From assembly GCA_021850485.1 (NCBI GenBank), contig JAJZLY010000009.1, positions 39,374-103,373 on the forward strand: a stretch of 64,000 bases of DNA, written 5' to 3'. This document shows, piece by piece, positions 880 to 59,884 of the stretch. The stretch is from Bacillota bacterium. GTDB taxonomy: Bacteria > Bacillota > Sulfobacillia > JAJZYS01 > JAJZLH01. Position 1 is the first letter of the stretch. The number at the start of each line of letters is the position of its first letter. A program made the position numbers and the translations under genes. The notes beneath the pieces were generated by a model that saw nothing but the letters and a program-made list of their open reading frames with translations, was not told the origin of the DNA and made no database searches.

Positions 880-1330
880 GTCGCTCCGACTCTTCGGAAC
901 GCTGCCGACTCACCACCGCTAGGGTGCAGCGGCTGGTGGCGATCAGCCGGCCCAGCTGGTCGGTGAGCGAAATCTGCCACACCATCGTGGTGCGCCCCAC
1001 CCGCACCGGCGTTGCTTCCGCCCGCAGGGTGCCAGAGCGCATCGAGCGCAGGTGGGAGATGTTCAGCTCGATGCCCATCACGCCCTGGGTCTGCGGATCT
1101 GGCAGCGCCAGCTGTCCGCCGATGCTGGCCGCCGACTCTGCCAGCACCGCCGAGGCGCCGCCGTGCAAATAGCCAAAGGGCTGGTGCACCCGCCAGTCGA
1201 CCGGCATGGTGAGGACGATGCGCGTCGCAGATGCCTCTTCAACACTGATGGCGAGCACGTCTAAAAGGGTCTTCACGCCAGGCTTGACCAAGCCCGCAAG
1301 GCGGGAGTGTGGGTCGTTTCCCGTCTCCAT
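851..1330 (-). CDS. Hotdog-fold acyl-CoA thioesterase (PaaI/YdiI-like)
   Basis: A 159-residue protein of the usual length for a single-hotdog thioesterase. The signature stretch HQPFGYLHGG followed by LAE (His56 and Glu65) matches the HGGxxxxLAE catalytic helix of the 4-hydroxybenzoyl-CoA/1,4-dihydroxy-2-naphthoyl-CoA thioesterase group, which hydrolyses acyl-CoA in the cytoplasm. I chose the ATG at 1330 because AGGAGGTG lies six bases before it; a GTG at 1336 would have no spacing. The acidic/basic tail (residues 140-159) overlaps the end of the convergent phosphoesterase gene. The acyl substrate is unknown; the fatty-acid operon 3 kb away makes a role in CoA-ester turnover possible, but this is inference. 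Confidence 0.82.
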   Translation of the reverse strand: METGNDPHSRLAGLVKPGVKTLLDVLAISVEEASATRIVLTMPVDWRVHQPFGYLHGGASAVLAESAASIGGQLALPDPQTQGVMGIELNISHLRSMRSGTLRAEATPVRVGRTTMVWQISLTDQLGRLIATSRCTLAVVSRQRSEESERPRGERSKTR

Positions 1331-1421
1331 GACCACACCTCCTGGCGATCTCGGGAACTTTTGACGGATCGATCGGATTCTAGAGGGAAGGGGCCAGTCA
1401 AGAGTCAGCTGAGGAGTGGGT

Positions 1422-29271: not shown

Positions 29272-30090
29272 ATGGATCTCTATGGCGTGATTGGTTACCC
29301 GATTGGCCACTCTCTGTCTCCGCAAATTCATCAGCGAGCCTTCCAGCGAGCTGGACGGCCCGCACTATACGTCGGCGTGGCTGTTCGGCCCGAAGCGCTG
29401 GCGGGCGCCTTGGAGCGGATGTGGGATGAGCCCTGGCAGGGCTTCAACGTGACCGTCCCGCACAAGGAGTCGGTGGTCTCCCTGCTGGCGGGGCTCACAG
29501 ACCAAGCCCGCCAGGTGGGCGCGGTCAACGCCGTGGTCCGAGGCGCAGCAGGCTGGTACGGCGCGAATACAGACCTGGCTGGATTTGTGGCCACATTGCC
29601 GGCCCAGCCGCAACGGGCACTGGTGCTCGGCGCTGGCGGTGCCGCCCGGGCCGTTGTCACCGGCTTGCAAAGCCTCGGCACCAGCGTCAGCTGCAGCACG
29701 AGAAATGCTGCCAGGTTGGCCCGGCTGGTCGAACAGACGGGCGTCCGGGCCATCAGCTGGGAGCACCGCCACCGCCTGCTGGGTGACATTGACTTGCTGG
29801 TCAACGCCACCCCCCTTGGGCAGACGCCAGACACTCAGACCATGCCGCTGGATCAGCTCGAGGGCCTGGGTACCGACGCCTGGGTTTATGACTTGGTCTA
29901 CCGCCCGTGCCCGACCCGACTGCTCCAAGAGGCGCAGGCCCTAGGCTGCCGGACCGTGTCCGGTGTGGCCATGTTGGCGGCCCAAGCTGCACTCACCTGG
30001 GAGTTGTGGTTCGGTCAGCATGGACCTGAACGCGAGTTTCTCGCCCACCTGCACGAACTGGTGCAGGAGGAGACCGAGAACACGCCGTGA
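29272..30090 (+). CDS. aroE: Shikimate dehydrogenase
   Basis: A 272-residue NADP-dependent enzyme reducing 3-dehydroshikimate. SLSPQIHQRAF (residues 14-24) binds substrate, Lys65 in FNVTVPHKES is the catalytic lysine at the same number as in E. coli, and VLGAGGAAR marks the cofactor site, followed by NATPLGQTPD. Full length. The start ATG directly abuts the deacetylase stop, with GAGGGTGAGTGA upstream, and the end overlaps the prepilin peptidase by four bases. It is therefore embedded in the polysaccharide/pilus transcript and separated from aroC and aroKB by only two genes. Confidence 0.93.
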   Translation: MDLYGVIGYPIGHSLSPQIHQRAFQRAGRPALYVGVAVRPEALAGALERMWDEPWQGFNVTVPHKESVVSLLAGLTDQARQVGAVNAVVRGAAGWYGANTDLAGFVATLPAQPQRALVLGAGGAARAVVTGLQSLGTSVSCSTRNAARLARLVEQTGVRAISWEHRHRLLGDIDLLVNATPLGQTPDTQTMPLDQLEGLGTDAWVYDLVYRPCPTRLLQEAQALGCRTVSGVAMLAAQAALTWELWFGQHGPEREFLAHLHELVQEETENTP

Positions 30091-30821
30091 GTATTGTTGT
30101 GTTGTTTCTCTGTGGACTGGGCTTGGGTCTCGTGCTGGCGGTCGCCAGCCGGCGATGGCTCGATCCGACGGTCAGTCAGCCGTGGGTCAGACATTGTGCA
30201 GGCTGCCAAAGCCGGCTCCCTGCCTGGGCTTGGCTGGGCATACCCGGGGCCCGATGCCCCCACTGCCAGACTGCGCCCCCGTGGCGGGAGCGCCTGATGT
30301 CGCTCCTAGGGGGCGCCCTGGCGGCAACGGGCGGATGGCTGTTTGCGGACTGGCGGCAGGCGGTGCCTGCGGCGCTTTTTTTGCTGGTGCTGGGACTCGT
30401 CACTTGGACGGACTTAGAAGCCCGCCTGGTGCCGGACCGGATGCTCCTGGTGGCGGCCGCAGGTGCCGTGTTGATCGCCGTGGCGTGGCCACCCGCACCG
30501 TGGCAGTCAGCGCTATTCGGAGCGCTGGTGCTGGGTGGCGTTGCCCTATTACTGGCCATCTTCAGCAAAGGGGGGCTGGGCGGTGGGGACGTCAAACTGG
30601 CGGCAGTAATCGGATTGTTCCTGGGGCCGACCGCCGGGGCCTTTGCCCTGCTCGGCGCCTTCATCGCAGCTGGCTTATGGGCGAGCGCAATGCTGATCAG
30701 CCGAAGGCGGAGGGCTCATGACAGTATGGCTCTCGCTCCCTATTTGGCCGTTGCAGCAGCGGTGGTGCTCAGTCTGCGACTGGTCGGGATGCCGTTTTGG
30801 GGCGGGCCCGGCGCGCCCTAG
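30087..30821 (+). CDS. Prepilin peptidase (A24 family, PilD/TadV-type)
   Basis: A 244-residue membrane aspartic protease that cleaves the leader of class-III/type IV prepilins. It has the N-terminal cytoplasmic zinc site (Cys37, Cys40, Cys57, Cys60 in HCAGC and RCPHC) and both catalytic aspartates, in TWTDLEARLVPDRM and the GxGD motif GGGDVKLAAVIGLFLG. The zinc-bearing domain may also methylate the mature N-terminus. GTG start overlaps aroE. The Flp pilin and Tad machinery follow 5 kb downstream, so this is their likely processing enzyme. Confidence 0.9.
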   Translation: MSIVVLFLCGLGLGLVLAVASRRWLDPTVSQPWVRHCAGCQSRLPAWAWLGIPGARCPHCQTAPPWRERLMSLLGGALAATGGWLFADWRQAVPAALFLLVLGLVTWTDLEARLVPDRMLLVAAAGAVLIAVAWPPAPWQSALFGALVLGGVALLLAIFSKGGLGGGDVKLAAVIGLFLGPTAGAFALLGAFIAAGLWASAMLISRRRRAHDSMALAPYLAVAAAVVLSLRLVGMPFWGGPGAP

Positions 30822-30959
30822 AAGCCCAGGTCCTCGCGACCAACCAGAGTGGTGGCAAGACGCAGCGTCAGGGGGCGCTAGGAGCCGAGGGGCGAAGAGC
30901 AGGTGTAGGTCAGTTTCCTAGTGGGCCCTGAAGGTCGGGAACTGAGTGAGGGGGGGCAT

Positions 30960-32915
30960 ATGATGGCGCTGCCGCTCGTGCTGATGGTGGAGACTGTGAC
31001 TAGCATGATCGCGGTCGGCGCGTTGGTGCTGATCTGGTGGCCGACCTACGCACTGGTGCAGTTTTCGGAAATGGATGGCATCGACAGACTGGCGTCCAAT
31101 GCGACGCGCATGGTCTTGTTCTTGATCGTGATCGGCTACTTGCTTACCGCCATCCAGATCTTGAGCTGGATGTCCCTGGCTGCAGCCTTGATCCTGCTCC
31201 GGCTCGGGGTGCCACGACCTGACGCCAGCACCGAGAGAGGCGATACAAACACGCCAATCAGCCGGCGCCTGATGGTCGAGTTAAACGAGTTAGTGGCCCT
31301 GCCGACTCGCCTCTGGGCGAAGGGGCCTAGGCGGGGCACTGAGGTGGGGCACCAGGGACGAGGGCGATGGTCTTGGTATGGCGTGGCGGCGACTGCCGGC
31401 ACGACGGCGGTGGTTGCGGTAGCGACCTGGATGCGCTTTTGGCAGAATTGGGTGCACGCGGCGCTGCCGTACTCAGACGCCTATGTGCTACTGGCCTGGA
31501 TGAAAGATATTCAACTGGGTCGCCTGTTCCCGGACGGCATCTATCCCAAGGCGTACATGCTGGTAATGGCGGAATGGAGTCAGCTGGGCGGGACAAATCC
31601 GGTTGTACTCGAGAAGTTTTTCGGGCCTGCGGTGGGCGTGGCGATGGTGCTGACGGCTGGGTATACGGCCTATCGGTTCTCCGGTAAGGTGGCGCCTGGC
31701 ATTATCGCCATGCTCTGCTATGGCAGCCTCACGTTTCTGTTTCCCTACACGGTAGACCGCCAGGCAGCCTCCTTAGCTCAAGAGTTCGGCAGCGTCTTCG
31801 CCCTGCCCACGGCCTACTTCGTCTATCAGTCCTGGATCCAGCCAACACAGCGAGGCTGGCGGTGGACGGCGATCTCGCTGTTGGCAGTGGCAGGACTGGT
31901 GCATCCGATACCGCTGCTCAACGCCTCGATCGCGGCGGTGGCCGCAACGCTGGGTGGCTGGATGGCAGCCGGGATCGACCGTCGGCTTCTGGGCTGGTAC
32001 TTGAAATGGATTCCCCTGACCGCGCTGCTGGTGGCCCTGCCAATCGTCTTGCCGCGGGCGCTGGGCATTCCCCTGTACGGCTCGTCGGCGGCTTTTTTGG
32101 TCAGCAACGCGGCTGGACCTGCCCCACCGCTCAACGCGGTCGCCGCCGTGGCTGCAGGCGCCTGTGTCACTCTCTTCTTGCTCCACCTGCTGCGTCGGCG
32201 GGACGGCACCGTGATCACGGTGCCCCTGGTGGTGCTGATCGCCCTGGCCGGCGCCCTGCTCGTCCAGCAGCTGCCCCGCCTAGGACTGAAGTCGGCGCTA
32301 CTCAGCCAGCGCAGCGGCAACTTCGTGGCCTTCACTGAAGCACTCGGACTGGCGATGGCCTGGTGGCTCTTGGAGGAGATAGTCGCCTGGGTCACGTCCA
32401 ACAGACCAGCCGCCTGGATCTCTTTGGTGTTGGCTATCGCCGTTTCGATTGGGGCGTGGAGGACATTCCCGCCGCGCCCGCTGACGCCGTACGCGATGAC
32501 GTCTGACGCCTTCGTTGCTGCCTATGTGGACATCGCGACAAGCCAGCCGGCCAACAGCTGGCTTGCGGTTTCCAACGATCTAGGCTATTCGTTTGCCCTC
32601 GGCCAGGGCTTTCAGATCGACGCGCCGTTGTTCGTCAGTCACGTGCCGCCGACGATTTCCGGGACCTGGCCCCGCTATGCGCCGGGCGGCGGGGCACCGT
32701 CGTATCCGATCGGTCAGCGTGAGATCTTTTTGTTCGTGAATCACCGCTACCACGTGGCTGACTTGGGTACAGCCGGCCTCGCCTATGCGCGAGCCGACCG
32801 TCAAGATACGATTTTGGTAGAGGGCTGGCTCAAGGCCTGGGAGGCGCACCATGCTGCCCCCAAGGTCTTCTTCTCCAGCCCCCAGCTCACGGTCTACGAG
32901 TTGCAGGAGGGCTAG
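30960..32915 (+). CDS. Large polytopic membrane protein, GT-C-like (paralogue 2)
   Basis: A 651-residue membrane protein closely related to the product of 19984-21978: both share WWPTYAL, MVLFLIVxGYLLTA, YSDAYV, EKFFGPAVGVAMVL, FALPTAYFVYQSW, GLVHPIPLLNA, GIPLYGS and SFVAF-like FVAFxEALGLAM. At DNA level 31800-31835 is identical to 20818-20853 (36 bases). The ATG at 30960 is chosen because GAGGGGGGG lies directly upstream; GTG 30921 is less likely. 138 bases separate it from the prepilin peptidase gene, with no feature recognised there. Function is unknown; the duplication suggests two related substrates or a heteromer. Confidence 0.65.
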   Translation: MMALPLVLMVETVTSMIAVGALVLIWWPTYALVQFSEMDGIDRLASNATRMVLFLIVIGYLLTAIQILSWMSLAAALILLRLGVPRPDASTERGDTNTPISRRLMVELNELVALPTRLWAKGPRRGTEVGHQGRGRWSWYGVAATAGTTAVVAVATWMRFWQNWVHAALPYSDAYVLLAWMKDIQLGRLFPDGIYPKAYMLVMAEWSQLGGTNPVVLEKFFGPAVGVAMVLTAGYTAYRFSGKVAPGIIAMLCYGSLTFLFPYTVDRQAASLAQEFGSVFALPTAYFVYQSWIQPTQRGWRWTAISLLAVAGLVHPIPLLNASIAAVAATLGGWMAAGIDRRLLGWYLKWIPLTALLVALPIVLPRALGIPLYGSSAAFLVSNAAGPAPPLNAVAAVAAGACVTLFLLHLLRRRDGTVITVPLVVLIALAGALLVQQLPRLGLKSALLSQRSGNFVAFTEALGLAMAWWLLEEIVAWVTSNRPAAWISLVLAIAVSIGAWRTFPPRPLTPYAMTSDAFVAAYVDIATSQPANSWLAVSNDLGYSFALGQGFQIDAPLFVSHVPPTISGTWPRYAPGGGAPSYPIGQREIFLFVNHRYHVADLGTAGLAYARADRQDTILVEGWLKAWEAHHAAPKVFFSSPQLTVYELQEG

Positions 32916-34181: not shown

Positions 34182-35689
34182 AAGTTGCGCTCACGGGTCT
34201 GCCCGGCGCTGGCAAGAGCCTGGTTGGCAGGCTCCTCGCCGATGAACTCGGTATCCCGTTTTTGGATCTCGACGACGAGGTCAGCCGGGAGGCGGGATCA
34301 GAGCCGGCCCGTCTGATCGACAGCCTCGGCTTGGATGCCTTTCGCAGCCTGGAGCATCGCATCCTGACTCGCGTCAGCGGAGAGCATGATGGCCTGCTGG
34401 CCCTCGGCGGCGGCAGTCTGGACGATCCACGAAACGCTCAGCTGTTGCGGGAGTGGCGCCTGATCTGGCTGCGGCCGTCGCTGACCACGCTGGTTCGCCG
34501 CCTGTCTGGAGACGACAGCCGGCCGCTCTTGCGCGGAAATCTGGCTGCCCGCCTGGACGACATCAACCTGCGCCGACGGCCGATCTTCTCGAGACTGGCG
34601 GAGGCGAGCTTTGAGGCCGAGACCGAGGCATCAGAGGTGGCGCGCCTGGTGGGCCGCTATGTGCAGGAGGTCGAATGGGTCGGCCCCGGCGTACTGTGGG
34701 GCAGAGGCAGCCGGCACCATCTTGCTCGTTTTGCCCCCGGGCGGGCAGCGGCGGTCATCGCCCAGCCAGTGACCCAGCACTGGAGCGAGGAGATCCGGCG
34801 GGCGCTACCAGAGGTGCCCATTTTGGCCTTTGACGACCACGAGGACAAGAAGACACTGGACAGCGTGCGTAGCCTGTACGGCTGGGCAGCTCAGCAGGCC
34901 TTCGATCGCACCACCACCGTATTTGCGGTTGGCGGTGGCGTAACGGTCGATGTCGTCGGCTTTTTGGCGGCCACCTACTTGCGCGGTCTGCCCCTGGTGG
35001 ACGTGCCTACGACCCTGCTGGCGGCGGTGGATGCGGGGATCGGCGGCAAGGTTGGCGTGGACCTGCCGGAGGGCAAAAACCTGGTCGGAGCCTTCCATAC
35101 GCCTCGCATCACGGTCGTGGACCCGGAGTTTTGGGCCAGCCTGCCGACGTCGGTGTTGGCCGACGCCATGGCCGAAATTGTCAAGGCGGCTTTGCTGGAA
35201 GGTGACTCCGCCTTGGAGGCGCTCGAGGAGATGGCCTGGCCAGCTACGCCGGAGGACCTGGAGCCCGTGGCCCGGCGCGCTGTGGCTGTGAAGATGGCGA
35301 TCGTGGAGGCCGATCCCAAGGAGGAGGCCGAGCGAACCTACCTGAATCTGGGACACACGGTTGGCCATGCCTTGGAGCAGGCCACTGGCTATCAAATGTC
35401 GCACGGCCATGCCGTAGCGATTGGCTTGAGTGCCATCTTGCGCTTCGGTGCCCCCCAGGGCAGGGCTGACGGTTTGGTGCGGCGCGTCGAGCAGTTGTTG
35501 CTGCGCTTTGGCCTGCCGATCTATGCCGATATCCCGCCCGAGCAGTTGATGCAGCCGATGGGCTTGGACAAAAAACGCAGTGATGGCGCCAAGCGACTGG
35601 TGCTGTTGGAACGGCCCGGCCACCCCTACCTGGCTGCGGCCAATGATGCAGACTTGCGACGTCTTGCCGAGCAGATGGTGCGCGACTGA
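34178..35689 (+). CDS. aroKB: Bifunctional shikimate kinase / 3-dehydroquinate synthase fusion
   Basis: A 503-residue fusion. Residues 1-165 are shikimate kinase: Walker A GLPGAGKS (7-14), LDLDDEV, LALGGGSLDD, and the lid RPLLRGN. Residues about 170-503 are dehydroquinate synthase: AVGGGVTVDVVGFLAATYLRG, VPTTLLAAVDAGIGGKVGVD, KNLVGAFHTP, and the zinc ligands in NLGHTVGHALE and SHGHAVAIG. The pathway would proceed from DAHP to DHQ and later shikimate to shikimate-3-phosphate. TTG start at 34178 overlaps aroC. Fusion order kinase-first is known in some bacteria. The riboswitch-led pilus operon follows. Confidence 0.93.
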   Translation: MKVALTGLPGAGKSLVGRLLADELGIPFLDLDDEVSREAGSEPARLIDSLGLDAFRSLEHRILTRVSGEHDGLLALGGGSLDDPRNAQLLREWRLIWLRPSLTTLVRRLSGDDSRPLLRGNLAARLDDINLRRRPIFSRLAEASFEAETEASEVARLVGRYVQEVEWVGPGVLWGRGSRHHLARFAPGRAAAVIAQPVTQHWSEEIRRALPEVPILAFDDHEDKKTLDSVRSLYGWAAQQAFDRTTTVFAVGGGVTVDVVGFLAATYLRGLPLVDVPTTLLAAVDAGIGGKVGVDLPEGKNLVGAFHTPRITVVDPEFWASLPTSVLADAMAEIVKAALLEGDSALEALEEMAWPATPEDLEPVARRAVAVKMAIVEADPKEEAERTYLNLGHTVGHALEQATGYQMSHGHAVAIGLSAILRFGAPQGRADGLVRRVEQLLLRFGLPIYADIPPEQLMQPMGLDKKRSDGAKRLVLLERPGHPYLAAANDADLRRLAEQMVRD

Positions 35690-35728: not shown

Positions 35729-35756
35729 TTGACATCTTGATGTAATGGCCTAAGAG
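35729..35756 (+). promoter_or_regulatory. Sigma-70-like promoter of the flp/tad operon
   Basis: A perfect -35 box TTGACA (35729-35734) is followed after 16 bases by TAAGAG (35751-35756), a poor match to -10. Predicted initiation near 35763 would start the transcript about 15 bases before the riboswitch core, which supports the assignment. The surrounding sequence is more AT-rich than the coding regions. A different -10 choice is possible. Confidence 0.5.
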
Positions 35757-35777
35757 TGGAGAACAAATTGAATGTCC

Positions 35778-35866
35778 AGCGAGAAAGGCAAACACGTCGA
35801 AAGGCGTGGACGCAAAACCACGGGCCTGAAGCTCCCCTCGGGAGACAGGCAGCCGGGTTGCCGAAC
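35778..35866 (+). promoter_or_regulatory. Cyclic-di-GMP-I (GEMM) riboswitch aptamer
   Basis: Sequence and order match the GEMM-I consensus. GGCAAAC leads into a hairpin CACGTC-GAAA-GGCGTG with a GNRA tetraloop, followed by the conserved GACGCAAA (35809-35816). A second stem with CC-acg-GGCCT on one side and AGGCAGCCGGG on the other contains a variable GCTCCCCTCGGGAG arm, and the element closes with GGTTGCC. The GAAA loop and the CCTGAA receptor side are those that dock in known structures. It lies between a promoter and a terminator ahead of the Flp pilin gene, so pilus expression should respond to c-di-GMP; direction of the response cannot be told. Confidence 0.88.
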
Positions 35867-35876
35867 GGGCGTGTTA

Positions 35877-35926
35877 GGAAGCCCTGAAAGCTTCCCCGCC
35901 TAGACGGACGGGGGGGCTTTCCTCTT
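35877..35926 (+). terminator. Intrinsic terminator with competing antiterminator of the riboswitch
   Basis: AAAGCTTCCCCGCC (35887-35900) pairs with GGaCGGGGGGGCTTT (35906-35920, one bulged A, two G-U pairs) and is followed by CCTCTTTCTC, a pyrimidine/U-rich tail typical of an intrinsic terminator. An alternative hairpin GGAAGC (35877-35882)/GCTTCC (35890-35895) uses the same left strand and would prevent the terminator. This pair of exclusive structures is the expected expression platform. Confidence 0.75.
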
Positions 35927-35957
35927 TCTCCGGACGTATGGGAAGGAGGTTTGCCAG

Positions 35958-36125
35958 ATGCTGTCACTCATGTCTCTATGGAATGTCCTGCGCAACCAGC
36001 GTGGTCAGGGCATGGTGGAGTACGCACTCATCATTGCTCTGATCGCAGTCGCCTTGGTCTTGGCCCTGACTAATCTCGGAGCCGGTATCGGAGCCATCTT
36101 CACCAAGATCACAACCAGCCTCTGA
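35958..36125 (+). CDS. flp: Flp/Fap-type pilin
   Basis: A 55-residue prepilin. The short positively charged leader ends in RNQRGQG, followed by the conserved MVEYALIIALIAVALVLALT hydrophobic helix with the Glu-Tyr pair that defines Flp pilins; cleavage by the A24 peptidase is expected after the glycine of the leader. It is the major subunit of Tad pili used for surface adhesion. AGGAGGT lies eight bases before the ATG. It is the first gene behind the c-di-GMP riboswitch terminator and is followed by a stable hairpin that may set its high expression relative to downstream genes. Confidence 0.92.
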   Translation: MLSLMSLWNVLRNQRGQGMVEYALIIALIAVALVLALTNLGAGIGAIFTKITTSL

Positions 36126-36204: not shown

Positions 36205-36606
36205 GTGGCCAAAACTCACCGTTTCGCGCGTGACCGACAGTCTGGTCAGGCAGCGGTTGAATTTGCGCTCATCTTGCCGCTTTTGGTGTTGCTGTTGGTC
36301 GGCGTGGTTCAGGTGGGAGCGATCTTGTCGGCCGCTCTGACCCTGCAGATGGCGGCGGCCGAAGGGGCGCGAGTCGCCATCACCGGAGCCACCAACGCCC
36401 AGATCGCAGCTCAAGTCGACCAGGTGGCCTCGGATCTGCCCGCTACCGGCTTGGTGATTACGATCACGCCCAGTGGGGCACGCCAGGCTGGCAGCAATGT
36501 CACTGTCTCGGTCAGCTACCAGGCACCGGTGCTGTTTGGAACCTTGGCCGGTCTGTGGGGCAGCACCATCCCGGTGTCTGGCAGCGCCACCATGGGCATG
36601 GAGTAG
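36205..36606 (+). CDS. tadE: TadE-like minor pseudopilin
   Basis: A 133-residue protein with the TadE signature near the N-terminus: DRQSGQAAVEFALILPLLVL, a pseudopilin-like segment with Glu at position 5 after the processing glycine, followed by a small extracytoplasmic domain rich in Ala, Thr and Val. TadE proteins are processed by the same prepilin peptidase and needed for Flp pilus assembly. Start GTG at 36205 lies behind AGAGAGGGA. The next gene, the TadG-like protein, follows after six bases. Confidence 0.85.
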   Translation: MAKTHRFARDRQSGQAAVEFALILPLLVLLLVGVVQVGAILSAALTLQMAAAEGARVAITGATNAQIAAQVDQVASDLPATGLVITITPSGARQAGSNVTVSVSYQAPVLFGTLAGLWGSTIPVSGSATMGME

Positions 36607-36612
36607 TGATCG

Positions 36613-37557
36613 ATGAGAGGCGGCGGCAGCGTGCAGAGGTCGGGGACGCGAAACTGGAACCAGCGGGGCTCGGTGATCGTCATCGTGGCGGTCTCCGCAG
36701 TGTTCGTGCTCGGGTTCTTTACGCTCTCGCTCGACGCCGGCCGCGTCTACGTGCTGAAGGAACAGTTGCAGACTGCTGCTGACGCCAGTGCGCTGGCCGG
36801 CGCTAGCCTCTTGCCCACCTCACCGAGCGGTGCCGTCACAGCCGCCGTGAACACCGCTGTGGCCAACGGCGTACCAGCGGCCGATGTGACCGCCGCCGTG
36901 ACCGGGGCAGCCGGCAACCAGTTGACGGTCACGATCGTGGAGCGAGAGCCGCTGGTCTTCGGCCCGCTGATCGGCATTTCCAGCGCTCAGGTTTCAGCCG
37001 TCGCCGGAGCCGCCATTGGGCAGCTGAACACCTTTACCGGCTTGTTGCCGCTAGGTGTCGAGATGACGACATGGACCACAGGTCAGACCTACACCTTGAA
37101 GATTGGCAACGGGTCCACCTCTAACGGCGACCTCGGTCCGGTATGGTTCGGCGACGGCTCGCCCGGCGCCACCACCTACGAACAAGACCTGATCAACGGC
37201 ACCCAGCTGCCGATCACAGTCGGCGAAACGATCAGCACCCAGCCCGGCGACATGGTGGGGCCGACAGAGCAAGGACTTTCGGCCAGGCTGGCGGCGTGCT
37301 CAGCCGCTGGAGAGGCGTCGGCAGAGGGCAGTGGGTCCACGATTGTCAACTCGCCGTGCCTGATGTACCTGCCCATCATCCTGCCGCCGAGTGGCGGCCG
37401 CACCACGGTGACCGTACTTGGCTTTGCGGCCTTCTGGCTGCAGTCCGTGCATGGGGGAGCGGTGACCGGATCTTTCATCAGCGCCGTGGTGAACGGGTCC
37501 ATCGGCCCCTACGTGCCGTCTACGACCAACCTGATGGGTGTCACCCTTGACCAATAA
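36613..37557 (+). CDS. tadG: TadG-like pilus assembly protein (Flp pilus-associated)
   Basis: A 314-residue protein. The N-terminal segment RGSVIVIVAVSAVFVLGFFT, then LDAGRVYVLKEQLQTAADASALAGA, is the TadE/TadG-like pseudopilin anchor and helix found in Flp pilus-associated proteins. The extracytoplasmic part resembles von-Willebrand-poor TadG forms without MIDAS motif, so adhesion function is uncertain. Residues about 150-260 contain two cysteines (CSAAGE, SPCLMY) that may form a disulfide. ATG start at 36613, six bases after tadE. Fifteen bases separate it from the cpaB-like gene. Confidence 0.8.
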   Translation: MRGGGSVQRSGTRNWNQRGSVIVIVAVSAVFVLGFFTLSLDAGRVYVLKEQLQTAADASALAGASLLPTSPSGAVTAAVNTAVANGVPAADVTAAVTGAAGNQLTVTIVEREPLVFGPLIGISSAQVSAVAGAAIGQLNTFTGLLPLGVEMTTWTTGQTYTLKIGNGSTSNGDLGPVWFGDGSPGATTYEQDLINGTQLPITVGETISTQPGDMVGPTEQGLSARLAACSAAGEASAEGSGSTIVNSPCLMYLPIILPPSGGRTTVTVLGFAAFWLQSVHGGAVTGSFISAVVNGSIGPYVPSTTNLMGVTLDQ

Positions 37558-37572
37558 CGGAGGCAACAAGTC

Positions 37573-38238
37573 GTGAGCATCGGCCGGCGCAGTTGGTTAC
37601 GTGTTGTCCTGCCTCTATTGGCGGCCGTGATCGTCGTTGCCGCCTTCTTGATCGTTTCCAGAGCTCCGGTTGCCCGGTTGCAACACGTGCTGGTGACCAC
37701 TCAGGCGCTGGCGGCCGGTACCGTACTGACGGCTGCGGATGTGAGCGAGGCGACGACGCCGACATTGGCAGTCGGTGATCTGACCGCCGTCCAAAACGCG
37801 ATCGGCCAGACGCTGACCGTGCCGTTGGCGGCGGGGGAGCACATTCGCCAAGAAGATCTGGTGCCACCGCTGAGCGCCGCCCTGACTCAGGAGCTGCCGG
37901 TCGGCGAGCGGGCGGTCACTGTCTCCCTAACCGCGGTGGCCGCCGTCGGCTTTCAGCTGGTCCCCGGCAACCGGGTCGATGTCATCGCCACATTTGGTGC
38001 GAGCAGCGGACCGAAGAATGCTCCACTCTCCGACCTCGTGCTCAGCAACGTGCTGATCCTGCGGGTGGCGGCACCTGCCACTGGGGCCACCAACGGCCTG
38101 ATCACCCTGGAGCTGACGCCAACCCAGGTGGCCACTCTGGAATTGTCTCAGCAGTTGGGCAGCATTACCCTGGCTCTTCGCCCGGCCCGTGACCACGTGC
38201 CGGCTAGTGCACTTCAGGAGGTGACAGTACTGCCATGA
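37573..38238 (+). CDS. cpaB: CpaB/RcpC-type pilus assembly protein with SAF domain
   Basis: A 221-residue protein with one N-terminal membrane segment (VVLPLLAAVIVVAAFLIV) and a SAF domain (VTTQALAAGTVLTAADVSEA), then the RcpC-like part VPLAAGEHIRQEDL, TVSLTAVAAVGFQLVPGNRVDVIA. CpaB/RcpC sits in the periplasm-equivalent space and is required for Flp pilus biogenesis. The start is GTG at 37573. It overlaps the CpaE-like ATPase gene by four bases (ATGA). Confidence 0.88.
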   Translation: MSIGRRSWLRVVLPLLAAVIVVAAFLIVSRAPVARLQHVLVTTQALAAGTVLTAADVSEATTPTLAVGDLTAVQNAIGQTLTVPLAAGEHIRQEDLVPPLSAALTQELPVGERAVTVSLTAVAAVGFQLVPGNRVDVIATFGASSGPKNAPLSDLVLSNVLILRVAAPATGATNGLITLELTPTQVATLELSQQLGSITLALRPARDHVPASALQEVTVLP

Positions 38239-39428
38239 GTGAGATCAGAGATGAGACCACCGTCGTGTTCGCCCTGCCCCGGCGAGCTGATCTGGACGCC
38301 CTGCGCACCATGCTGGGTGCCGAGGTGAAGGTGCTCGGCGAGGCCACCAGCTTTCGCGAGGCAACGGCCCTGATCACCCGCCACCGACCGGAGGTCGCGC
38401 TGGTGTCCAGCCAGCTTCCCGATGGCGACGTCTCCAGTTGGCTGGAACAAGACAGCCCGCTCGGTCAGACCAAATTGATCGTGCTGGCCACAGACCCCCA
38501 GCCGGAGGACTACCGCACCGCCATGCGCATCGGGGCGTTGGACCTGCTGCCCATGCCGCTGAACCCAGGGAGTATCCTGGAGAGTCTGCGCCGGGTGGCC
38601 AAGGGCCCGGGCGAGCGCCAGGGCAAGATCGTTACCGTGTTCGCCACCAAGGGCGGGGTGGGTAAGACAACGATCGCAGCCAACGTGGCTGCAGAGCTAG
38701 CCGGGCGCAGGCAGCGGGTGTGCGTGGTCGATCTCGATCTGGAGTTTGGTTCGCTCTCCGCCTTCTTCGGAGCGGTGCCCGAGCAGACGATGGCCGATCT
38801 GGTCCGCCGGCGCGGCGCCTTCTCCTTGCCGTTGATCCAAGAAATGATGGTCACTGACCCGATTTTGGGCGTGCCGATCCTGGCCTCCCCTTTGACGCCT
38901 GATCTGGCGCCGACCGTGGACGGCGAGGGCAAAAAAGAGGTCGGTCGCAACTATGTGGCTGAGATCTTGCGCATGTTGTGCCTGGGCTACGACACCGTGG
39001 TGGTGGATACGGCCAGCCGCTTTTCGGAAGCGACGGTCAGCGCCCTGGAGATGGCCAGCACGGTGCTGCTGGTCACGGCCCCCGATGTCCCGGCCCTGCA
39101 GAGTACGGCCAAGGGACTCACCGTGTTGGTGGACAAGCTGGGATTCCAGCCCGATCGCTTGAAGTTGGTCTTGAACCGGGCCAACGCCGCCATTGGCCTG
39201 ACCGCCGAAGACATCAGCCGCTTCTTGGCCTATCCGATCTCCTATCGACTGCCCTCAGACGGGGATGCTGCGGTGCGCGCCTGCAACACCGGGGTGCCGA
39301 TCGTCAGACGCCGGCGCAGCGGTCCGCTCGCCCGGGCGCTGGCGGCGCTTGCCCAAGACGTCGCCGGTCCGCCCCAGCGGCTCACTCCCCGGCGTAGCGT
39401 GCTGCGACCACTCGGTGTCAGGAGGTAG
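38235..39428 (+). CDS. cpaE: CpaE/TadZ-like pilus-localising ATPase
   Basis: A 397-residue protein with an N-terminal atypical receiver-like domain (about residues 10-120, no clear phosphoacceptor motif), followed by a MinD/ParA-type P-loop ATPase: VFATKGGVGKTTIAANVAAE (deviant Walker A near residue 138) and VVDLDLEFGSLSAFFG. TadZ/CpaE proteins localise the pilus machine at the cell pole or along the surface. The sequence ends with an unusual basic tail (LTPRRSVLRPLGVRR). Its stop lies six bases before the CpaF-type ATPase gene. Confidence 0.88.
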   Translation: MSEIRDETTVVFALPRRADLDALRTMLGAEVKVLGEATSFREATALITRHRPEVALVSSQLPDGDVSSWLEQDSPLGQTKLIVLATDPQPEDYRTAMRIGALDLLPMPLNPGSILESLRRVAKGPGERQGKIVTVFATKGGVGKTTIAANVAAELAGRRQRVCVVDLDLEFGSLSAFFGAVPEQTMADLVRRRGAFSLPLIQEMMVTDPILGVPILASPLTPDLAPTVDGEGKKEVGRNYVAEILRMLCLGYDTVVVDTASRFSEATVSALEMASTVLLVTAPDVPALQSTAKGLTVLVDKLGFQPDRLKLVLNRANAAIGLTAEDISRFLAYPISYRLPSDGDAAVRACNTGVPIVRRRRSGPLARALAALAQDVAGPPQRLTPRRSVLRPLGVRR

Positions 39429-39434
39429 GCCAAA

Positions 39435-40739
39435 GTGTCACTTTATCGCAAGATTCACGGTGCCGATGGCGACCCATTGGCTGGGCCAGAGCGCGAGCAG
39501 TTCATCTTGCTCAGACTGGAAATCCAAAAGCGCCTGGCCAGAGAGATGGGTGCCACCAAAGGGGTGGTGCGACTGGGCGCCGCTCAGGAGCCGGAACTGC
39601 GCGAGCGGGTGATGAGCCATCTCGCCGAGGCAGAGGTGCCAACGGTGGACCGTGAGATGCTGTGCGAGGAGATCGTCTCTTCGATCATCGGCCTAGGGCC
39701 TCTGCAGGCCCTGCTGGACGACCAGTCAGTGTCTGAGATCATGGTCAATTCCAGCCGCGAGGTCTACGTCGAACGGCGCGGCAAGCTGGAGCGGACGCCG
39801 GTTCGTTTCGCCGACGACCGCGAGGTCTTGGACATGGTGGACCGCATCATCGCGCCGCTCGGCCGCCGGCTCGATGAACAGAGCCCGATGGTCGACGCCC
39901 GCCTGAAAGACGGCAGCCGGCTGAACGCCATTATCCCGCCGCTGGCGCTGCGCGGCCCGACCGTCACCATCCGCAAATTCCCCACCCGCCCGCTCGGCGT
40001 GTCTGACCTGGTCGACAATCAAACGCTGAGCCAGGAGATGGCCATCTTTCTGGAGGACTGTGTGCGCAGCCGAGTCAGTGTGGTGGTCTCGGGAGGCACC
40101 GCCTCCGGCAAGACCACCTTGTTGAACGTGTTGTCATCGTTCATCCCGGCGGACGAGCGCATCATCACGATCGAGGATGCAGCCGAGTTGCGCTTGCAGC
40201 AAGACCACGTGGTCGCCCTCGAAACTCGGCCGGTGAATCTGGAGGGGTGCGGTGAGGTTGGGATTCGCCAGTTGGTCAGAAACGCGCTGCGGATGCGGCC
40301 AGACCGGATCATCATCGGCGAGGTGCGGGCAGGCGAGGCGTTGGACATGCTGCAGGCGATGAACACCGGACACGATGGGTCTCTGACCACCGTGCATGCC
40401 AACGGGCCGAGGGAAGCGCTGTCTCGGATCGAGACCATGGTCCTGATGGCTGGCGTTGATCTGCCGCTGCGCGCCATTCGGGAGCAGATTGCGTCAGCAG
40501 TGCAGATCATCGTTCAGATCGCCCGCGGCAAGGATGGCGCCCGGCGCGTGATGCAAATCGCAGAGGTGCAGGGATTGGAGAACGAGATCATCGTCTTGGA
40601 GGTCATGTTCTCGTACGACCAAGAGGCGCACGCCTTTCGCCAGACGGGCTTTAGGCCGAAGAATGCTGATCGCATGAGCGGCGGCAGCTGGGGGCTGGGC
40701 CAACGCGATAGCACCTGGCAAGAGCGCAGCCGTGGCTAG
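39435..40739 (+). CDS. cpaF: CpaF/TadA-type secretion ATPase
   Basis: A 434-residue hexameric ATPase that powers extension and perhaps retraction of Tad pili. It has the N-terminal domain (VDREMLCEEIVSSIIGLGPL, then SVSEIMVNSSREVYVERRGK), Walker A SGGTASGKTTLLNVLSSF, Asp box DERIITIEDAAELRLQQ, Walker B RPDRIIIGEVRAGEALDML, and the His box. Start GTG at 39435. Its end overlaps the TadB gene by eight bases. Length matches the family. Confidence 0.93.
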   Translation: MSLYRKIHGADGDPLAGPEREQFILLRLEIQKRLAREMGATKGVVRLGAAQEPELRERVMSHLAEAEVPTVDREMLCEEIVSSIIGLGPLQALLDDQSVSEIMVNSSREVYVERRGKLERTPVRFADDREVLDMVDRIIAPLGRRLDEQSPMVDARLKDGSRLNAIIPPLALRGPTVTIRKFPTRPLGVSDLVDNQTLSQEMAIFLEDCVRSRVSVVVSGGTASGKTTLLNVLSSFIPADERIITIEDAAELRLQQDHVVALETRPVNLEGCGEVGIRQLVRNALRMRPDRIIIGEVRAGEALDMLQAMNTGHDGSLTTVHANGPREALSRIETMVLMAGVDLPLRAIREQIASAVQIIVQIARGKDGARRVMQIAEVQGLENEIIVLEVMFSYDQEAHAFRQTGFRPKNADRMSGGSWGLGQRDSTWQERSRG

Positions 40740-41643
40740 ACTGCTGGTGGCGGTCGTTGTGGCCTTGGTGGTCTTCTGGACGGTCTGGGTGGTTGTGGAC
40801 GGCAACCCCACCAAGCGAACGTTGTCCCGTCTGAAGAGGTTGCGCAGTCCGGTTCTCGAGGCTGCGATTGGTCAGAGCGGGTCAGCGGCAGCTGGTGCGG
40901 CCAAATTCACCGCCTTGACGCGCCTGCTACGGCGATCCGACTCACGGTTCACGGCGAAAGAAGTGCTGATGGCTGCCGCCGCTGTCTCGGTGCTGATGGC
41001 ACTGGTGATGAGTTTGCTGATCGGACCGCTGGCCGTGGTGGTCGGCCCCGCCCTGACCATCGGCGGTGGCCGCTGGTGGCTGGCCATGCGCACGCAAAAG
41101 CGCCAGCGGGAAATGGAAGCGGCGTTGCCCAGTTTGCTTCAGGCTGTCGCCAACGGGCTTCGGGCTGGACACGCCCTCGGCCAGAGTCTGGAGATGGCGG
41201 CCGGGCAAGAGAATTCGCCGCTGAGCCGCGAGGTCCAGTCGGCGGTCTCCCAGATGCGCCTGGGCCTGCCCTTGGAAGATGTCTTGGAGGAACTGGCCGC
41301 TGATCTGGATCTCACCGAGCTGTCCTTGGCGGTGACCGCCATCTCGGTCCAGCGCCAAGTTGGCGGCAACCTGGCCGAAGTCTTGGACCGTATCCAAGGA
41401 ACGCTGCGCGAGCGGCTACGCATTGCCAATGAGGTGCGGGCCTTGACCGCTCAGGGCCGGATGTCCGGCTGGATCGTCAGCCTGCTGCCGGTGGCCATCG
41501 CCGTGCTCACCTCCTTGATCGACCCGGGATTCTTGCATCCGCTGTTTGCCACCACCATTGGACACATCATGCTGGGTGCGGCTGTTTTGCTGGAGTTGGT
41601 CGGTGGGCTGGTCATCCGCCAATTGGTCCAGGTGAACTACTGA
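40732..41643 (+). CDS. tadB: TadB-like inner-membrane platform protein
   Basis: A 303-residue member of the type II secretion F-domain family. An N-terminal membrane segment, the paired GLRAGHALGQSLEMAAGQEN, LGLPLEDVLEELA, and RQVGGNLAEVLDRIQGTL signature, and terminal membrane segments are in standard order. TadB with TadC forms the inner platform of the Tad machine. GTG start at 40732; last base of the stop overlaps the first base of tadC (TGATG). Confidence 0.9.
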   Translation: MARLLVAVVVALVVFWTVWVVVDGNPTKRTLSRLKRLRSPVLEAAIGQSGSAAAGAAKFTALTRLLRRSDSRFTAKEVLMAAAAVSVLMALVMSLLIGPLAVVVGPALTIGGGRWWLAMRTQKRQREMEAALPSLLQAVANGLRAGHALGQSLEMAAGQENSPLSREVQSAVSQMRLGLPLEDVLEELAADLDLTELSLAVTAISVQRQVGGNLAEVLDRIQGTLRERLRIANEVRALTAQGRMSGWIVSLLPVAIAVLTSLIDPGFLHPLFATTIGHIMLGAAVLLELVGGLVIRQLVQVNY

Positions 41644-42524
41644 TGGTCGCCTTGGTTGCGCTGATCGTGTTCGCCGTGGTGTTTGCTGCCGGGTCCGTGC
41701 TGATGGCGCCGGCTGAGGAGACTGTGCGCATCCAGCGCCACCTGGTGTCCCTGGCCAGGGGAGAGGCCGAAGCGGCCGTCGCTCCAGCACCGATTGGCGA
41801 CCGGGTGATCAAGCCGTTTCTCTCCAGCGTGGCAGGAGCGATCTTGCGCTATACGCCAAAACGGCAGGCGGACAGTTTGCAGACGCAGATTGCCCGCGCC
41901 GGATCGCCGATTTCTCTAGCGACCTTCATCCTCATTCGCCTAGCCTTGGCCCTGACGGCCGTGATTCCGGTGCTACTCGGGGGACGTAGCGGACTGCTCT
42001 GGGCGGTGCTGCTGGCATTGCTCGGCTATCGATTGCCCTCTTTGTGGCTGGCCAACCGGATCAAGGCGCGCAAGCGGCTGATGACCAAGGCCCTGCCTGA
42101 TGTGCTCGATTTGATCGCGGTTTCGGTGGAAGCGGGACTCGGCTTCGACGGAGCCCTTCAGCGTGTGGCCGAGAAAAGCCACCCGCCGCTCAGTGACGAA
42201 TTGGGCCGCACCCTCTCTGAGATCCGCCTAGGCCGGACCCGGGCCGAGGCGCTACGCGACCTGGCGACGCGCACCGACATCGCGGAGCTCCGCCAGGTGG
42301 TGTCGGCGATCATTCAGGCCGAGCAGATGGGCATTGGACTCGCCAGGCCGTTGCGGGTGGAGTCGGACGCCCTGCGCGTCCGCAGGCGCCAACGCGCTGA
42401 GGAGCAGGCGATGAAAACGCCTGTCAAATTGCTCTTTCCGCTGGTGTTTTTGATCTTCCCGGCCCTGTTCATCGTGTTGCTGGGGCCGGCGGTACTCGGG
42501 ATCGGCCATGTCTTACACCCGTAA
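41643..42524 (+). CDS. tadC: TadC-like inner-membrane platform protein
   Basis: A 293-residue type II secretion F-domain protein. Motifs DVLDLIAVSVEAGLGFDGAL, LGRTRAEALRDLATRTDIAE and AEQMGIGLARPLRVESDALR, with the final membrane segment FPLVFLIFPALFIVLLGPAV, are as in TadC. ATG start overlaps the TadB stop. It is the last recognisable tad gene; no separate secretin is present, as expected for a single-membrane organism. 54 bases separate it from the CofE-like gene. Confidence 0.9.
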   Translation: MVALVALIVFAVVFAAGSVLMAPAEETVRIQRHLVSLARGEAEAAVAPAPIGDRVIKPFLSSVAGAILRYTPKRQADSLQTQIARAGSPISLATFILIRLALALTAVIPVLLGGRSGLLWAVLLALLGYRLPSLWLANRIKARKRLMTKALPDVLDLIAVSVEAGLGFDGALQRVAEKSHPPLSDELGRTLSEIRLGRTRAEALRDLATRTDIAELRQVVSAIIQAEQMGIGLARPLRVESDALRVRRRQRAEEQAMKTPVKLLFPLVFLIFPALFIVLLGPAVLGIGHVLHP

Positions 42525-42578: not shown

Positions 42579-43304
42579 ATGTTCTTGGACAGCACCGAGT
42601 TGCCTTGGCCTCAGCATATCCAAGTCGGCTCGCCCATCATCTGCGGTCGTCAGACGTTTGACAGGTTGCTGGTACACACGCCGATGATCCACCAGGGCAC
42701 AGACCTGGAGCAGATGCTCCAGACCTTGGTCAGACCGTGGGTCAAATCCGGCGACATGATCTTCATCTCCGAGAAGGTGGTGGCGATCAGTCAGGGTCGC
42801 CTGGCCAAAGGGGATGAAATTCAGGTGCGCCCACTGGCGCACTTTTTGTCGGCGCGTGTGATGAAGTCCAGCCATGGCCTCGGCCACCGCAACCCGCTGG
42901 TGATGGAGATGGCGTTGCGCGAGGCCGGTCCGGTGCGGATTTTGTTCGCAGCCGCTGTTGGCGGCTTTAGCAAACGGGTCCTAGGACGCTCCGGCGACTT
43001 CTATCGTCTGGCCGGCAGGCGGGTTGCCGCCATTGACGGCACCAACCGGGTGACCATCCCACCCTACGGGGATTATGTCGTCTTAATGCCGACCGATCCT
43101 GAAGGAGTCGCCAGGCGCCTCGCTGGAGCGGCGGGTGGTGATCTGGCTGTGGTCGATGTGAACGATGTCGGGGCCGAGGTGCTGGGCGCCTCTGCCGGGA
43201 TAGACCGCGACCTGTTGCGTCAGGCGACGCGCGACAACCCACTTGGTCAGGGGCACCAGCAGACGCCGGTCGGCATCATTCGGGTACACAACCTGGCGCA
43301 CTAG
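42579..43304 (+). CDS. CofE-like (F420-0:gamma-glutamyl ligase family) protein
   Basis: A 241-residue protein closely resembling the coenzyme F420-0:L-glutamate ligase family: GDMIFISEKVVAISQGRLAK, FLSARVMKSSHGLGHRNPLV, GRSGDFYRLAGR, IPPYGDYVVLMP, then VVDVNDVGAEVLG and DNPLGQGHQQTPVGIIR. Versions of this protein occur in Bacillota that are not known to make F420, so the true substrate here may be different, with glutamate ligation inferred only from family. No other F420 gene is seen in the window. Neighbours give no functional clue. GAGGGCGGAGGG precedes the ATG. Confidence 0.8.
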   Translation: MFLDSTELPWPQHIQVGSPIICGRQTFDRLLVHTPMIHQGTDLEQMLQTLVRPWVKSGDMIFISEKVVAISQGRLAKGDEIQVRPLAHFLSARVMKSSHGLGHRNPLVMEMALREAGPVRILFAAAVGGFSKRVLGRSGDFYRLAGRRVAAIDGTNRVTIPPYGDYVVLMPTDPEGVARRLAGAAGGDLAVVDVNDVGAEVLGASAGIDRDLLRQATRDNPLGQGHQQTPVGIIRVHNLAH

Positions 43305-58639: not shown

Positions 58640-59275
58640 GTATGATGTACGGACGAGGCGAGGTGATCGATCGGCTAGTTGGTGGTGCGGTATCCTAGTC
58701 GAAGCCATCTTCTCCCAAGGCGGGCCTAAAAATCCGCCGACAGGCACAGCGATGAAGTTCCTGGTGTCGGCTTCGGACGCCCAGTCTGGGGTTGGTGCTG
58801 GGAGTTAAGGCACCGGGACAGCCCGCAATGGCATGCGGACACTGGCCCTGGCGCCGCGGAGACCCGGGTGCGCCGGTGGCCGGCCTAACGGTTGACTGGG
58901 GGCCCGGGGGATGAACCTGCATGAGGTGCTGAACATATGGCGAGGCGTGTTGTGCAGCGTAGCCTGCCTTGAGCGTGGCGGGGAGAGAGGACCGAGCGAT
59001 CGGCCATTGAAACCCGTGGTGCAACAGAGGCTAAGAGAAGACGGGTGACGTGAGGAAAGCTCCTAGGCCGTCGGCCCTCGGGTCGGCTTGGTGGGGATTA
59101 CAGTGTGGCTTCAGTGGCAATCTAGCCCCGTTGACGGCGACGTCACGGACCAGGAGTAAAGGGGAACCGCCTGCCCGGCGACGGACAGGCTCCTCGGTGG
59201 GAAAGCCAGCTAGACCTAAACCGCAACGTTTACCTACCGGGTGCCACCAATCAGCCTTTTGCGCCCAGGGTGCTG
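58640..59275 (+). ncRNA. ole: OLE RNA (ornate, large, extremophilic RNA)
   Basis: About 0.6-0.7 kb between ispA and the OapA-like gene has no plausible coding frame but many potential helices, for example GGCGG (58719-58723)/CCGCC (58734-58738). OLE RNA is known from extremophilic and anaerobic Bacillota, is about 600 bases long, lies in this same isoprenoid-gene neighbourhood, and is bound at the membrane by OapA, encoded next to it. Size, position and partner all match. In Bacillus halodurans the OLE complex affects tolerance to Mg2+, cold and alcohol. Exact ends are unknown; the coordinates given are approximate. I recognise it from synteny rather than from an alignment. Confidence 0.82.
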
Positions 59276-59326
59276 GGTCCCCTACAATGGAGACATGACG
59301 CCCTGGCATGCTTGGCCTTTGATCCG

Positions 59327-59884
59327 ATGAGCAGGCACCGTGGCTGGTGGCGAGAACTTCCCTATGGACGGGCGGTGCGCTTTGCGGCCGTGGCGTTCGT
59401 GGCGGGCGGTTTGCTGGTCCTGCCGTCGCAGTTGGCCACCCCCCTGCTTGATCCGGCGCTGGATGTGGCGGTGGTGATCGTGGTGGTGGCCCTTGGCGTA
59501 GCGGCCGACATGGTGGGCGTGGCGTCGACCCGGGCCAAGGAACAGCCGTTCTTGTCCCGAGCCGCCAAGCGCACGCCGGGAGCTAGGCAAAGCCTGTACC
59601 TGGTGCGCCATGCCGATCGAGTGGCGACCGTGATGTCCGATCTGGTCGGCGATACCACCGGTACGGTGGCGGGGGCGCTGGCAGCGGCGATGGCCGTGCG
59701 GCTGGCGGAGCCGAAGTCGATCGCCGTGGTGACCGCCATCGCCGTGGGGGTACTATCGGCCGTTACGGTCGGCCTGAAGGCCCTGTCCAAGTACCTGGCG
59801 GTACACCGGGCAGACAGCGTGGTAACCTTTGCCGGCCGCCTGCTGGCAACTGTTGGATTCGACCCGGCTCGATCGAAGGGGTGA
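59327..59884 (+). CDS. oapA: OapA-like OLE RNA-binding membrane protein
   Basis: A 185-residue protein with about four hydrophobic segments (FAAVAFVAGGLLVLPSQL, LDVAVVIVVVALGVAADMVG and two near the C-terminus). The segment VAADMVGVASTRAKEQPFLS, then RTPGARQSLYLVRHADRVAT and MSDLVGDTTGTVAGA, is like OapA proteins and remotely like the DUF21/CNNM transporter domain. OapA dimers bind OLE RNA and bring it to the membrane. ATG 59327 gives a family-like N-terminus but has no good ribosome site; GTG 59270 adds 19 residues and would overlap the RNA end. It lies between the OLE RNA and dxs, as in B. halodurans. Confidence 0.82.
   Translation: MSRHRGWWRELPYGRAVRFAAVAFVAGGLLVLPSQLATPLLDPALDVAVVIVVVALGVAADMVGVASTRAKEQPFLSRAAKRTPGARQSLYLVRHADRVATVMSDLVGDTTGTVAGALAAAMAVRLAEPKSIAVVTAIAVGVLSAVTVGLKALSKYLAVHRADSVVTFAGRLLATVGFDPARSKG

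Follow-up and report, generated by a model that had tools for sequence, protein, structure and literature searches.

A class I c-di-GMP riboswitch before a Tad/Flp pilus operon in the Bacillota, with a predicted OFF response to its ligand

How might c-di-GMP reach the genes of a Tad pilus when a riboswitch-like leader lies directly before the pilin gene? The question is raised by positions 35729-35957 of a stretch of 64,000 nucleotides from a member of the Bacillota, which was analysed as a whole (the window). This region is the gap between a shikimate kinase/3-dehydroquinate synthase fusion gene, ending at 35689, and flp, starting at 35958. A preliminary description of this DNA had proposed that a Tad/Flp pilus operon follows the leader, and Pfam matches bore this out. 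The genes looked for in a Tad/Flp (type IVc) operon, those of Flp, TadE, CpaB, a TadZ-like protein, TadA and two platform proteins, are all there, arranged as follows.

35943-35949, + strand: Shine-Dalgarno sequence AAGGAGG of flp (from the sequence)
35958-36125, + strand: flp, major Tad pilin of 55 aa (PF04964, E 8.6e-14)
36205-36606, + strand: TadE-like pseudopilin (PF07811, E 3e-13)
36613-37557, + strand: TadE/G-like protein (PF13400, E 7.3e-11)
37573-38238, + strand: RcpC/CpaB (PF16976 and SAF domain PF08666)
38235-39428, + strand: TadZ/CpaE-like ATPase (AAA_31 and a weak receiver domain)
39435-40739, + strand: TadA/CpaF ATPase (PF00437, E 1.4e-59)
40732-41643, + strand: TadB platform protein (PF00482)
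41643-42524, + strand: TadC platform protein (PF00482)

A prepilin peptidase gene (PF01478) is found near the operon at 30087-30821. Between it and the chorismate synthase gene lies an ORF of 664 aa (30921-32915, + strand) without a Pfam match at E 0.1, and the gene directly after tadC (42579-43304, + strand) matches F420-0:gamma-glutamyl ligase (PF01996, E 8e-11). Farther along, positions 58666-59263 (+ strand) match OLE RNA (RF01071, 378 bits, E 1.5e-107). This RNA is flanked by a polyprenyl synthetase gene and by an ORF of 204 aa (59270-59884, weak CNNM match), which occupies the position expected of an OLE-associated membrane protein and is followed by a DXP synthase gene.

The class of the leader RNA was examined with covariance models. 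When the 64 kb were compared with 4227 Rfam families, positions 35778-35866 matched c-di-GMP-I-GGC (RF03167) with 73.7 bits (E 1.4e-15), above the gathering cut-off of 59 bits. The match to c-di-GMP-I (RF01051) reached 78.2 bits (E 6.8e-16), above the cut-off of 35 bits, and was the sole one in the whole genome. It answers the test set beforehand for a class I (GEMM-I) aptamer before flp, namely a significant covariance-model match. A purpose-built covariance model (R1) gave 84.7 bits, the window row being part of its training set.

35772-35781, + strand: 5' strand of P1, made up of AUGUCC (35772-35777) and CG (35780-35781), read from the sequence
35778-35866, + strand: class I c-di-GMP riboswitch aptamer

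It can be seen that AUGUCC is paired with 35867-35872 and CG with 35862-35863, and that both P1 strands are invariant in the three genus genomes. The blocks named in advance, i.e. a GNRA hairpin, GACGCAAA and GGTTGCC, all lie where they had been placed: the GAAA tetraloop of P2 at 35799-35802, of the GNRA type that class I requires, GACGCAAA at 35809-35816 and GGTTGCC at 35856-35862. In one genus relative the P2 tetraloop is GCGA, likewise of the GNRA type. The ligand-contact nucleotides, identified in the sequence and in its alignment to the model, are G20 (35787), A47 (35814) and C92 (35861), which we take to be the c-di-GMP contact positions of class I aptamers. It is virtually certain that 35778-35866 is a c-di-GMP riboswitch. 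The riboswitch class is canonical and the target process of a known kind; both this type of riboswitch and the Tad pilus are well known.

The elements around the aptamer that could turn ligand binding into a change of transcription are listed below.

35729-35734, + strand: −35 element TTGACA, identical in genus and sister-family flp leaders
35752-35757, + strand: candidate −10 element AAGAGT, weak
35861-35907, + strand: predicted antiterminator (minimum-energy fold of 35857-35908)
35886-35921, + strand: predicted intrinsic terminator hairpin (−24.7 kcal/mol)
35922-35931, + strand: pyrimidine tail CUCUUUCUCC of the terminator (from the sequence)

The promoter had been placed at TTGACA, and all flp leaders have this hexamer, both in the genus and in its order's sister family. 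Since it is unchanged in two other genus members and in the sister-family leaders amid varying flanks, a real −35 element is supported. The −10 is poor in the genus, and a generic promoter scan made no call at TTGACA/AAGAGT. An intrinsic terminator, also proposed earlier, is predicted at the hairpin 35886-35921: none of 200 shuffles was as stable (z about −4.5), and its stem is 93% paired in the three genus genomes. Its tail is interrupted by C and has 5 U among the first 8 bases, which is U-poor for an intrinsic terminator. The hairpin was not called by a generic terminator scan, probably on account of a bulge close to its loop.

Positions 35857-35908 have a minimum-energy fold of −18.9 kcal/mol (z −2.05; 7 of 200 shuffles did equally well) with three helices, the first of 3 bp between CCG (35861-35863) and CGG (35905-35907), the second of 5 bp between GGGCG (35867-35871) and CGCCU (35897-35901), and an inner one of 6 bp between GGAAGC (35877-35882) and GCUUCC (35890-35895). 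The same fold was obtained for both genus relatives. An antiterminator had been described as having 5 bp or somewhat more; this fold bears it out as a prediction and revises its length to about 14 bp (3+5+6). Because C92 and the P1 bases on the 3' side (35862-35863 and 35867-35871) are taken up in it, the antiterminator is incompatible with the bound aptamer; it also takes up the terminator's 5' arm and some of its top, and is therefore incompatible with the terminator as well. In addition, CGCCUAGACGG, which forms the terminator top and loop, does not differ among the three genus genomes, although other bases of the platform do. There is no obvious reason for a terminator loop to be fixed in this way unless it has another pairing partner. 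Counting base pairs across the genus sequences, three in number, was uninformative for covariation, little of which is to be seen with only three genomes.

Control of the Tad operon by the riboswitch is very likely. As to the sign of this control, the architecture and its conservation point to an OFF switch, in which termination would probably depend on c-di-GMP. At low c-di-GMP, the terminator's loop and 5' arm would be paired with the last part of the aptamer, comprising C92, the 3' strand of P1 and what follows it, and the resulting antiterminator of about 14 bp would let RNA polymerase read through into flp. When c-di-GMP is held by G20, A47 and C92, P1 would be locked and the antiterminator would be deprived of both outer helices; the terminator could then nucleate at its top, and transcription would end before flp. 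The whole explanation, a class I riboswitch with a termination platform that controls the flp-tad operon and is OFF with bound ligand, is in our judgement reasonably likely, and we infer from the sequence that c-di-GMP binding and termination occur in the cell. The preliminary description had spoken of a route from c-di-GMP to surface pili, giving no sign. The route is supported by the aptamer, the Tad operon and the GGDEF and EAL domains of the genome; the activating tone is not, as the exclusive pairings favour OFF.

Leaders of the sister family bear on the sign. In these leaders the GGG of P1 itself is the 5' arm of the antiterminator, and when the bound aptamer was forced, the upstream pairing of the terminator arm dropped, for example from 0.67 to 0.05 and from 0.73 to 0.18. 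One pair of the sister-family terminator is compensated, being G-C in five sequences and A-U in three. The ensemble of the window was neutral on the sign (antiterminator pairing 0.65 in the apo state versus 0.67-0.72 in the bound state), since P1 and the inner GGAAGC/GCUUCC helix can form together. At 20 Tad-linked loci, own terminator arms, assigned by hand, matched the aptamer 3' ends better than swapped arms did (0 of 2000 permutations); an annotation-free repeat of this duplex test was marginal (Stouffer −2.07), and the window's own aptamer-terminator duplex was no better than shuffles (z +0.99; z 0.03 in the annotation-free repeat). For these reasons the permutation test was left out when the window's own sign was judged. 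In C. difficile all seven functional class I switches are OFF, and elsewhere there are ON switches of class I (PMC6366702).

The persistence of the inner antiterminator helix with P1 in the bound ensemble also suits an ON switch. Here bound P1 would draw GGGC (35867-35870) off GCCC (35882-35885) and thereby free GGAAGC for the inner antiterminator, and c-di-GMP would lead to read-through and pili. The required GGGC/GCCC complementarity exists in the window, and the C. difficile pilA1 switch, of class II, is ON (PMC6366702). However, GCCC is not conserved in the two genus relatives, where GCCU and AACU stand instead, and the use of the P1 GGG as antiterminator arm in the sister-family flp leaders gives OFF. 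We consider an ON switch rather unlikely.

Improbable, too, is control mainly at translation, by ligand-dependent access to a Shine-Dalgarno region (35940-35949) paired with the pyrimidine tract 35921-35931. A hairpin of about 10 bp over AAGGAGG is predicted (about −14.3 kcal/mol), also in one genus relative, but its z is only −1.1, so that composition accounts for most of its stability. Moreover, the Shine-Dalgarno sequence is predicted to be paired in all forced states, and thus no ligand dependence was seen. On these two grounds the hairpin was rejected as the control point.

For this aptamer, c-di-GMP is the expected ligand, judging from the G20/A47/C92 signature, the lack of A20 and the GGDEF and EAL domains in the genome. 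An A at position 20 is the mark of the cGAMP-binding relatives, and it is absent from this aptamer, which has G at 35787. RF03167 ranks first by E-value for the window and its genus relatives, and the cmscan clan rule retains the GGC label because this E-value is the lower one; the variant is presumably named after its nucleotides at the ligand contacts. That the aptamer is such a variant, with another or a broader ligand preference, is very improbable and was rejected, since the defining G47, which comes right after GACGC in the RF03167 consensus, is replaced by A in the window (35814, a mismatch in the model alignment) and in both genus relatives, and the bit score is higher with RF01051 than with RF03167.

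The pairing of this riboswitch with Tad genes is recurrent. RF01051 was present in 14 of the 15 genomes of the order and in 137 of the 154 of the class, and the aptamer is therefore common in the lineage. Within the order, the riboswitch lies directly upstream of 12 of the 14 flp genes (11 of the 13 flp-bearing genomes), a count that includes two genomes with identical copies. Of 30 well-scoring flp loci of the class that were compared, 13 carry it; nine of these lie outside the order and represent eight families. Some Tad loci of Bacilli and Clostridia have it as well: in a set of 80 named TadA relatives, there are five loci at which the riboswitch precedes tadA in the same orientation (Neobacillus, Fredinandcohnia, a Clostridiales bin and two other Firmicutes/Bacillota bins). 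At a further locus (L251, G141:C70) there are two divergent c-di-GMP-I aptamers, 1034-1125 (− strand) and 1288-1381 (+ strand), separated by about 160 bases, and flp follows one of them; the intergenic region between them may be controlled by c-di-GMP in both directions. A search of open-licence literature found no paper on the riboswitch-Tad pairing; as it did not extend to most subscription papers, this is weak evidence of novelty. What is less documented is the systematic coupling to Tad, seen at the flp genes of the order, together with the predicted repression of pili by c-di-GMP. If the OFF sign is true, the Tad pili of this lineage would belong to the low-c-di-GMP state, set by RNA alone.

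The genome from which the window comes encodes seven GGDEF and five EAL domains, and each genus member (G000, G012, G013) has between four and seven GGDEF domains. The three GGDEF domains inspected have the motifs GGDEF, AGDEF and GGDEF, and the usual Asp of the GD step is present. PilZ domains were not found in any of the three genus genomes, whereas 10 of the 15 genomes of the order have one, and no MshEN domain was found in the window's genome. The class I riboswitch is single-copy in two of the three genus genomes. A search of the genome for class II riboswitches gave no match, and the control genomes likewise gave none, so that this negative does not establish absence. These observations could be read as a nearly RNA-only c-di-GMP circuit in a genus with small genomes, in which several GGDEF/EAL proteins would turn c-di-GMP over, with no PilZ or MshEN receptor for it, and its main dedicated output would be a single class I riboswitch that turns Tad pili OFF. 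We put this forward as a doubtful conjecture. High c-di-GMP usually favours pili and adhesion, and the OFF sign of such a circuit, if true, would be opposite to this rule.

Compared with known systems, the aptamer is no different from those of other RF01051 (c-di-GMP-I, GEMM-I) riboswitches in sequence, structure and the G20/A47/C92 contacts, and its target here is a Tad/Flp operon. It is also alike overall to c-di-GMP-I-GGC (RF03167), the family of lowest cmscan E-value, whereas the G of that variant at position 47 is missing. The predicted platform is of the terminator type, like that of the C. difficile class I switches. Cdi-2-4, which precedes C. difficile pilA1, resembles the present case in that a c-di-GMP riboswitch and a terminator stand ahead of a type IV pilin gene; however, it is of class II, serves type IVa-like pili and is ON (PMC6366702), whereas class I, Tad pili and a predicted OFF sign are found here. 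Cd1, which precedes C. difficile flgB, likewise combines a class I aptamer with a terminator and is OFF with c-di-GMP (PMC6366702), but Cd1 governs flagella, while the riboswitch described here precedes pilus genes.
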